Positions 26,616 through 28,982 of a stretch of DNA of 38,366 nt are shown one piece after another. The DNA is from Verrucomicrobiota bacterium (GTDB taxonomy: Bacteria > Verrucomicrobiota > Verrucomicrobiia > Verrucomicrobiales > DEV007): contig DAOUQC010000047.1 in the NCBI GenBank assembly GCA_030625775.1, forward strand, positions 1 through 38,366, given 5' to 3'. The position numbers and the translations under genes are program-made. The notes below the pieces were generated by a model that did not search any database, had not been told where the DNA came from, and saw nothing but the letters and a program-made list of their open reading frames with translations. Positions within the stretch are counted from its first letter, which is position 1; every line of letters begins with the position of its first letter.

Positions 26616-27446
26616 TTGCCCAGCACCATTCCCATTTTAGATCAGATCACCGCCTTCGCTCTCGAATACTGGCGCGACGCCGTGTCGATTTTGATTTTGT
26701 GGGTGATGCTTTATTACGCCTACCTTTTTTTCCATGCCACCCGCGGAGCACGAATTTTCACTGGACTGGTGGCCGTATGGATTGCCCTGACCCTGTTGTC
26801 CGAATTGCTCAAGCTGGTGGTGATCGGTTGGATATTGAAAAGCGTATCGGTATTCATCGTGGTCGCCATGGTAGTGATTTTTCAACCTGAGTTGCGTCGA
26901 GCACTGGCCGAACTGGGCAGCAATCGCCTTTTTTCACGCTTCAACGCTGAAAGCGATCAGGAATTCATCGACAATCTTTGTGAGATCATCGGGCAGCTCT
27001 CAAAAAAACGTGTGGGTGCACTGATTGCCATCGAGCGCTCTATCGAACTCAAACCCTACCTCGAAACCGGAGTGGCGATGGATTCCCTGCTATCCAAAGA
27101 GCTCGTCCAAACGATTTTTCATTCGAATACCGCCTTGCATGATGGGGGAATGATCATCCGCTTGCGCGATGAGCGGATCATGGGGGCAGGCTGCGTATTT
27201 CCACTTCACCAACGTGAGCTGCAGGATCGCAGCATCGGCTTGAGGCATCGAGCCGGGCTGGGGATTTCCGAAGAATCAGATGCCATCGCAATCGTGGTTT
27301 CTGAGGAAACCGGTCATATTTCACTGGCGATTGAGGGTAAACTGGAGCGCAATTTAAAACCGGAGGCTCTCAGTGCCCGCCTCAACGATTTGCTCATCGC
27401 TGATCCGCATCCGGACGAGAATAATGAAAACCCTGCTGCTGAATAA
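26616..27446 (+). CDS. cdaA: Diadenylate cyclase CdaA (c-di-AMP synthase)
   Basis: 276-aa membrane-bound enzyme that makes c-di-AMP from two ATP. Three hydrophobic helices fill about residues 22-90 (VSILILWVMLYYAYLFF, FTGLVAVWIALTLL, VSVFIVVAMVVIF). The DisA_N cyclase domain follows, beginning near FQPELRRALAELG. Its catalytic motifs are HDGG at 175-178 (family D-G-A, here D-G-G) and LRHRAGLGISEESDA with R-H-R at 210-212; IVVSEETG comes after. The only workable start is TTG 26616, because no in-frame ATG lies before the first helix. The gene overlaps the next one by 23 nt and heads the cdaA/micro-cdaR/glmM/bioD operon. c-di-AMP usually controls potassium and osmolyte transport and cell-wall balance. 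Confidence 0.94.
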   Translation: MPSTIPILDQITAFALEYWRDAVSILILWVMLYYAYLFFHATRGARIFTGLVAVWIALTLLSELLKLVVIGWILKSVSVFIVVAMVVIFQPELRRALAELGSNRLFSRFNAESDQEFIDNLCEIIGQLSKKRVGALIAIERSIELKPYLETGVAMDSLLSKELVQTIFHSNTALHDGGMIIRLRDERIMGAGCVFPLHQRELQDRSIGLRHRAGLGISEESDAIAIVVSEETGHISLAIEGKLERNLKPEALSARLNDLLIADPHPDENNENPAAE

Positions 27447-27597
27447 TTGGAAAGCCAAAATGGCTTCATTGATGGTCGCCATTGCTGTTTGGTATTTAGT
27501 GAAAGGTCACGTCCAGCGACCTTCGATGCCTTTTTTCCCGATTCCGGGAACACAGAATGTTGACTGCTCAAACAGTGCTTTTGATCACATCGCATGA
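27424..27597 (+). CDS. CdaR/YbbR-like membrane-anchor micro-protein lacking YbbR domains
   Basis: 57-aa protein from ATG 27424. Its first half is the typical YbbR/CdaR N-terminus: a short cytoplasmic lead (MKTLLLNNWKAK), one membrane helix (MASLMVAIAVWYLV) and a basic exit (KGHVQRP). In ordinary CdaR the helix is followed by several extracytoplasmic YbbR domains of about 80-90 aa each; here only about 25 residues follow (MPFFPIPGTQNVDC...). The gene overlaps the cdaA end by 23 nt, and its TGA overlaps the glmM ATG (ATGA). This is exactly the cdaR position in the Firmicute cdaA-cdaR-glmM operon. The DNA after the stop is glmM coding sequence, so no YbbR remnant is hidden downstream. I infer a CdaA/GlmM partner reduced to its anchor. 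Confidence 0.78.
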   Translation: MKTLLLNNWKAKMASLMVAIAVWYLVKGHVQRPSMPFFPIPGTQNVDCSNSAFDHIA

Positions 27598-28982
27598 CAA
27601 TCGCTGCAGCCAAATTATTCGGAACGGATGGCATCCGTGGTGAAGCCGGGATTTTCCCACTCGACCCGGACACTATTTTTTTACTGGGACAGGCTGCCGC
27701 AGATGTATTGCTTGAAAAATCGCCTGGCACAAAATCCTGCTGCGTGATCGGTCAGGACACACGATGCTCGGGAGAAAAAATTCGAGAGTGCATCGTAGCC
27801 GGGCTCAATTCCCGTGGGGTAAAAGCTCTGATTGCCGGAGTGGTGCCCACTCCGGCAGTGGCATTTTTGACCAAAGAAAAAAATGCTGCCTTTGGGATTG
27901 TGATTTCGGCTTCGCACAATCCCTACCAGGATAATGGCATTAAATTTTTTGCTGCCGATGCCTATAAATTGGATGAGGACATCGAAAAAGCTGTAGAATC
28001 CCGATTACGCGAGCTGCTGGAGTCGGGTGAACCCGTAAAATTTGAGAGTGATGCTAAACATGCAAACATCGAGCTGATTGACCAGGCCGCCGAAGCCTAC
28101 ATCGAATACGTCTGCAAGGGCATTAGCACAAGTGAACAAAACGATCACCCCCTGCAAGGTTTGTCTGTCGCTCTCGATTCCGCAAACGGGGCCGCTTACC
28201 AGACCAGCGCTGCGATCCTCGAAAAATTGGGTGCACGCGTTCTTTCATTTTTTGATCAAGCTAACGGAGAAAATATCAATCTGGACTGCGGCTGCACTCA
28301 TCCTGCCACAATTGAAAAACTGGTGTGCGAAAACCAGGTGGACATTGGCATCTCCCACGACGGCGATGCCGACCGGGTTTGCCTTTGCGATGAAAATGCT
28401 TCAGCACTCGATGGGGACGAACTGCTGGCCATTGCCGGACTGGATATGATGCAACGGGGACTGCTTAAGGACAACACTTTGGTAGCAACCACCATGAGCA
28501 ACGGGGGGCTCGATAAAATCATCCGGGCCCATGGCGGACAGGTGCTGAGAACGGGAGTGGGGGATCGTCAGGTGATCACCGGGATGCGCCGCGGAAATTA
28601 CAACTTGGGCGGTGAGCAAAGCGGGCATATTATTTTTCACCCTCCTTCCACCACTGGGGACGGGATCGTGGCAGCCGCGCAGGTACTTGCCATCGTGTGC
28701 AGGACGGGAAAGCCACTGAGTGAATTGCGCACAGCATTCAAAGCTTTTCCTCAAGTGCAACGCAACATTGTAATGTCATCTAAACCCCCTCTCAGCACTT
28801 TCACGCTTGCTCAACAACTGATCGCTGAAACTGAAGCATTCCTGGGAGAATCAGGGCGGCTTTTGTTGCGCTATTCCGGCACCGAACCGTTGCTGCGTTT
28901 GCTGATCGAAGGCCCTGATGAAAAAGAGATTACTCGTCGAGCAGACGAGATCGTTAAAGCCATTCAAGAGCAAAGTGAATGA
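27594..28982 (+). CDS. glmM: Phosphoglucosamine mutase
   Basis: 462-aa alpha-D-phosphohexomutase that converts glucosamine-6-phosphate to glucosamine-1-phosphate for UDP-GlcNAc, peptidoglycan and LPS. It opens KLFGTDGIRGEAG as GlmM does. The phosphoserine S107 lies in ISASHNPYQDNGIKFF, the Mg2+ loop is HDGDADRVCLCD, the sugar-binding loop is GGEQSGHI and the C-terminal phosphate site is RYSGTEPLLRLLIEG. The length is normal. It is coupled to the upstream micro-protein by ATGA and to bioD downstream by another ATGA. In Firmicutes GlmM binds and inhibits CdaA, so the neighbourhood suggests the same mutual control. Confidence 0.96.
   Translation: MTIAAAKLFGTDGIRGEAGIFPLDPDTIFLLGQAAADVLLEKSPGTKSCCVIGQDTRCSGEKIRECIVAGLNSRGVKALIAGVVPTPAVAFLTKEKNAAFGIVISASHNPYQDNGIKFFAADAYKLDEDIEKAVESRLRELLESGEPVKFESDAKHANIELIDQAAEAYIEYVCKGISTSEQNDHPLQGLSVALDSANGAAYQTSAAILEKLGARVLSFFDQANGENINLDCGCTHPATIEKLVCENQVDIGISHDGDADRVCLCDENASALDGDELLAIAGLDMMQRGLLKDNTLVATTMSNGGLDKIIRAHGGQVLRTGVGDRQVITGMRRGNYNLGGEQSGHIIFHPPSTTGDGIVAAAQVLAIVCRTGKPLSELRTAFKAFPQVQRNIVMSSKPPLSTFTLAQQLIAETEAFLGESGRLLLRYSGTEPLLRLLIEGPDEKEITRRADEIVKAIQEQSE

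Follow-up and report, generated by a model that had tools for sequence, protein, structure and literature searches.

The window, by which we mean the whole 38,366-nt stretch of DNA analysed, contains a short gene wedged between cdaA and glmM on the forward strand, which we call micro-cdaR. The features discussed below are listed here by their positions in the window.

26616..27446, + strand: cdaA, membrane diadenylate cyclase, three predicted N-terminal transmembrane (TM) helices followed by the DAC domain
27424..27597, + strand: micro-cdaR, 57 codons, a single TM helix and a short predicted extracytoplasmic tail, without a YbbR domain
27424..27446, + strand: overlap of cdaA and micro-cdaR, 23 nt read in two different frames
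27457..27501, + strand: core of the anchor helix, residues 12-26, bearing the conserved face
27457-27459 (K12), 27466-27468 (S15), 27478-27480 (A19) and 27490-27492 (W23), + strand: codons of the face
27505..27594, + strand: C-terminal tail, residues 28-57, predicted to lie outside the cytoplasm, with an FPIPGT-type motif
27594..28982, + strand: glmM, starting on the ATGA that ends micro-cdaR

The window CdaA scored above the curated cut-offs of TIGR00159 (E 3.8e-69), PF02457 (DAC) and PF19293 (CdaA_N), and is by these sequence models a bona fide family member. The product of frame 27424-27597 (+) is MKTLLLNNWKAKMASLMVAIAVWYLVKGHVQRPSMPFFPIPGTQNVDCSNSAFDHIA, which matched no Pfam or NCBIfam model. 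An alternative GTG lies upstream in the same frame and would give a protein of 74 aa; it is a less likely start than the ATG at 27424, because conservation begins at the ATG. The first-pass annotation had recognized a cdaR-like setting here, from the cdaA-glmM interval and the 23-nt and ATGA overlaps, and had described a protein of 57 aa with no YbbR domain. Both descriptions proved accurate for 27424-27597, and the protein gave no match to the YbbR model PF07949. The FPIPGT-type motif in the tail is common to the window and its nearest relatives, as seen in an alignment of the window with loci L031, L032, L035 and L036.

The short frame is not peculiar to this genome. It is present directly 3' of cdaA in approximately 100 related loci, and none of the nearest relatives carries a YbbR domain in it, which indicates that it is not one genome's broken gene. 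We rejected the idea that this genome has a full-length CdaR interrupted by a frameshift or stop, on the grounds that relatives have the short form too and that glmM follows immediately. Neither of the outcomes that the first-pass annotation had named as refuting its idea was seen. The closest relative is the sister locus L031, whose CdaA is 91% identical to that of the window. Over the 49 codons of micro-cdaR outside the cdaA overlap, the two loci differ by 17 synonymous and 11 nonsynonymous changes (dS 0.84, dN 0.10, dN/dS ~0.12; silent excess P ~2e-5). The dN/dS pooled across all distant pairs is saturated and was left out. In 55 related loci, such as L053 and L226, cdaA and micro-cdaR overlap by a fixed 79 nt, and the micro-CdaR helix is dual-coded over the CdaA C-terminal tail. 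Within these 79-nt overlaps, substitutions at micro-CdaR codon positions 1, 2 and 3 numbered 559, 390 and 1400 (228 pairs from the 55 loci). Thus, the micro-CdaR frame is constrained and not the CdaA tail, and this codon-position pattern rules out a constraint borrowed from the overlapping cdaA frame. On these substitution patterns, micro-CdaR appears to be a selected protein and, given the selection, is presumably translated.

Four positions are kept in the helix. Position 12 is basic and nearly always K, position 15 is small (S, C, A, T), position 19 is small and nearly always A, and position 23 is W. This pattern was found in 85/85 non-redundant micro-CdaRs and in 32/32 YbbR-bearing CdaRs (117/117). 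The four positions lie on one face of the helix (conservation moment P 0.0007); the sequences had been collected with a profile of this helix, which makes the test of the face partly circular, although their genomic position is independent of that profile. Positions 15 and 19 make up a small-xxx-small motif, which is common in helix packing. Mean-field DCA of CdaA with micro-CdaR gave one outlier pair, CdaA L32 (TM1) with micro-CdaR S15, which exceeded 15 shuffled pairings and was not significant in a tree-aware test (p ~0.25), phylogeny explaining the pair equally well. Covariation between L32 and S15 would agree with an AlphaFold-based remark on streptococcal fusions (PMC10243994). Beyond the helix, the tails are clade-specific: FPIPGT in the window clade, EIRRSHP/DEIRLSxPE in L188, L221 and L225, PPRAxPV in Akkermansiaceae, and EPGxxDQ in L219, L234 and L262. 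These tails are possible outer ligands.

A profile built from micro-CdaRs only matched the N-terminal anchors of YbbR-bearing CdaRs (5e-15 to 6e-6), which bears out the first-pass assignment of the N-terminal anchor to the CdaR type. The same profile matched the anchor of Bacillus subtilis CdaR with 18 bits, against at most 10.9 bits in 500 shuffles. The B. subtilis query is presumed to be the correct CdaR sequence, which its match to the Listeria Lmo2119 entry of the PDB supports. In different lineages of the class to which the window belongs, the same locus carries CdaRs with two, one or no YbbR domains. On a CdaA tree of 122 rows the CdaR states were strongly grouped, all four states requiring 9 changes compared to a shuffled mean of 43, and the micro state requiring at least 5 changes on well-supported branches. 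As this tree is unrooted and quickly made, we took the direction of loss from outgroups and from the fact that CdaR generally has YbbR domains. The comparison points to several independent reductions of the CdaR ectodomain in a graded erosion. By the YbbR criterion micro-CdaR is not a standard CdaR; judged by position, anchor homology and intermediates, it is CdaR-derived.

To describe the distribution of the short form, we searched 169 class genomes with an alignment of 36 micro-CdaRs (profile A1). There were matches in 112, which include the anchors of longer CdaRs, and in 110 of these 112 genomes the match lay directly downstream of the DAC gene on the same strand. CdaR states were assigned by protein length, with Pfam YbbR matches as a check, in 111 sampled CdaA loci of the class. 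The short form (41-95 aa) follows cdaA in ~67 of them, 30 carry one YbbR domain (127-164 aa), 5 carry two (221-230 aa) and 9 have no cdaR. In L189, L192, L211, L214, L230, L233, L259, L202 and L210, cdaA runs straight into glmM with no recognisable cdaR; the CdaR-less lineages keep CdaA, and CdaR is therefore dispensable there. Phylum-wide, 161 of 289 sampled genomes had YbbR domains, and none of these 161 belonged to the class; YbbR-bearing class members, a minority, showed up in the larger sample of the class. The Omnitrophota sample consists of three loci only (L108-L110), which have forms of 44-45 aa placed before pdxJ instead of glmM. The short CdaR form is found in a large bacterial group, among whose members are relatives of Akkermansia, a bacterium of the gut. 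Some micro-CdaRs (L011, L061, L076, L087) are longer, ~109-113 aa, with a charged, probably helical tail in place of YbbR. A group of genomes that we call Opitutales-like, the name being inferred (families f4, f6 and f64; G131:C17, which is L261), has a different DAC protein of ~455-470 aa that is apparently soluble or membrane-free, gives weak PF02457 scores and comes without micro-CdaR or CdaR. Certain class members also encode second, paralogous cyclases (L254, 314-1537; L257, 311-1540; G298:C14; G336:C34), which carry on a single polypeptide CdaA-like TM helices, DAC, a TM helix of the CdaR type and a domain resembling YbbR.

A search of the window's own genome (96% complete) with PF07949 found no YbbR domain, with one spurious 14-bit match at E<=1, and the sister genomes of L031, L035 and L036 likewise had none. 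The first-pass annotation had suggested that the outward sensor was either lost or encoded elsewhere. Loss is what we observe, and the genome search rejected the second option, at least in the form of a separate YbbR protein. The PgpH-type extracellular domain PF07697 was also not found in this genome (G000), whose c-di-AMP phosphodiesterase therefore probably belongs to another type. The stepwise loss of YbbR domains, and the lineages without any cdaR, are compatible with the short frame being a functionless leftover of cdaR loss in the class. We regard this as very unlikely, given the dN/dS of ~0.12 and the constraint in the overlapping frame, a helix face unchanged in all 85 non-redundant sequences, and the two CdaA fusions and the relocation together with glmM that are described below.

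Micro-CdaR is fused in frame to the CdaA C-terminus in two loci, L215 (342 aa) and L245 (325 aa). At its end the L215 fusion has an EIRRSHP tail, as do the free micro-CdaRs of its relatives. With DAC in the cytoplasm, the fused helix would have to run from an inner N-terminus to an outer C-terminus, which is the topology we infer for micro-CdaR by analogy with CdaR and from these CdaA-CdaR fusions. The AlphaFold2 (AF2) model of the L245 fusion had a mean pLDDT of 85, with a helix at 284-316 and a pLDDT of 70-84 in the anchor helix. The input alignment (A3) held CdaA rows and fusions only, and was used because a joint MAFFT alignment (A2) of micro-CdaRs and CdaA placed the helix on the CdaA N-terminus. 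A search of the PDB by sequence or fold found no solved CdaA-CdaR complex.

Gene order among relatives bears on two further explanations. In the first, the frame serves merely to couple translation between cdaA and glmM, with the peptide itself irrelevant. The overlaps on both sides in the window would suit such a role, but constraint acts at the amino-acid level, and micro-cdaR has been retained at loci with bioD or pdxJ in place of glmM as the following gene, and also at loci without an adjacent cdaA, making this explanation extremely improbable. In the second, the main role of the helix is to recruit GlmM to the membrane, and not to act on CdaA. Here the two loci L262 (614-778) and L263 (1481-1645) are in favour, as micro-CdaR (54 aa) is encoded beside glmM with cdaA on another contig. 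In Akkermansiaceae, by contrast, micro-cdaR stays with cdaA and glmM is gone, and the fusions join CdaA, not GlmM; we consider a GlmM tether unlikely.

Previous work on Firmicutes showed by two-hybrid that CdaR binds the CdaA TM region (PMC6368335, PMC10243994). Streptococci have CdaA-CdaR fusions, for which AlphaFold points to the first TM helix of CdaA (PMC10243994). In Staphylococcus aureus, ybbR insertion or loss raises c-di-AMP (PMC11520302). CdaR has been reported as an activator and as a repressor, the sign differing between species, and how it acts on CdaA is an open question (PMC8573169). We interpret the locus as probably encoding a genuine CdaR that has been cut down to its helix, docks on the CdaA TM domain and sets the state of the cyclase without a YbbR sensor. 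This interpretation starts from a conserved gene under selection, of CdaR ancestry, that has lost YbbR and is linked to CdaA, including by in-frame fusion. The 57-aa product would form a single-pass helix with a cytoplasmic N-terminus and a short tail outside. Its K12/small 15/A19/W23 face most likely docks onto the CdaA TM domain, and docked micro-CdaR would be an extra TM helix of the cyclase complex. Docking may then set the packing or oligomeric state of CdaA, and hence its activity, with either sign, so that the micro-CdaR helix would exert control over CdaA. The YbbR ectodomain was lost stepwise in the class, and what is left would be the docking core of CdaR.

A structural subunit would leave much the same traces: the helix may be needed for CdaA folding, insertion or active oligomers and carry no regulatory information. 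Micro-CdaR has no sensor domain, and fusion to CdaA in two lineages would abolish regulation via the subunit ratio. The conserved tails past the helix, which differ between clades, suggest more than packing, however, and CdaA is kept in lineages without cdaR, indicating that it is not strictly dependent on the subunit. A purely structural role is thus a serious possibility, albeit not the one we favour. If micro-CdaR does control CdaA as we propose, its input must come from the membrane, the short tail or the cytoplasmic partner GlmM, since no YbbR protein serves as a replacement. More speculatively, and with less than even odds, the helix-only CdaR may still be responsive to input across the class, the face on CdaA being the switch and the membrane state or the outer tail the signal, with YbbR optional even elsewhere.

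CdaR has been regarded as relaying outside signals to CdaA, with the YbbR domains taken as its sensor. The loci described here add a natural series with several, two, one and no YbbR domains, in which strong selection extends to a form with a single helix and two fusions to CdaA occur. This series points to the anchor as the conserved functional core, and suggests that CdaR may need no more than its anchor helix to work as a regulator. A system of 57 residues allows direct mapping of the CdaA-CdaR interface, with the four named helix positions available for mutation, and two cultured strains carry such loci, Luteolibacter pohnpeiensis KCTC 22041 and Persicirhabdus sediminis KCTC 22039 (L050 and L103).

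Our searches of the open-licence literature turned up neither a description of a CdaR family lacking YbbR nor any c-di-AMP work in Verrucomicrobia. The initial reading of the gene as a minimal CdaR gained strength from the one- and two-YbbR intermediates, the anchor homology and the natural CdaA fusions. Micro-CdaR resembles the CdaR (YbbR) of the Firmicutes cdaA-cdaR-glmM operon in position, in its homologous anchor with the K/small/A/W face and in its predicted N-in/C-out topology. It differs in missing the 3-4 YbbR domains that Firmicutes CdaR has outside (PMC10243994), and in having 57 aa compared to several hundred. The fusions in L215 and L245 are like the streptococcal CdaA-CdaR fusions (PMC10243994) in joining the cyclase and the CdaR anchor in one chain, whereas the latter are described as large proteins and the former have nothing beyond the helix and a short tail. 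CdaRs of the class with one or two YbbR domains (e.g. L164, L203) share the locus and the anchor, are likely intermediates, and differ from micro-CdaR in the YbbR domains they carry and in their length of 127-230 aa. Outside c-di-AMP signaling, KdpF and AcrZ are examples of small proteins with a single TM segment that attach to an enzyme or transporter in the membrane and tune it. Micro-CdaR is like them in being a short helix that would serve a larger membrane protein as its accessory subunit, and unlike them in its unrelated sequence and its derivation from a larger regulator. Micro-CdaR is a variant of a known regulator and not a new kind of system.
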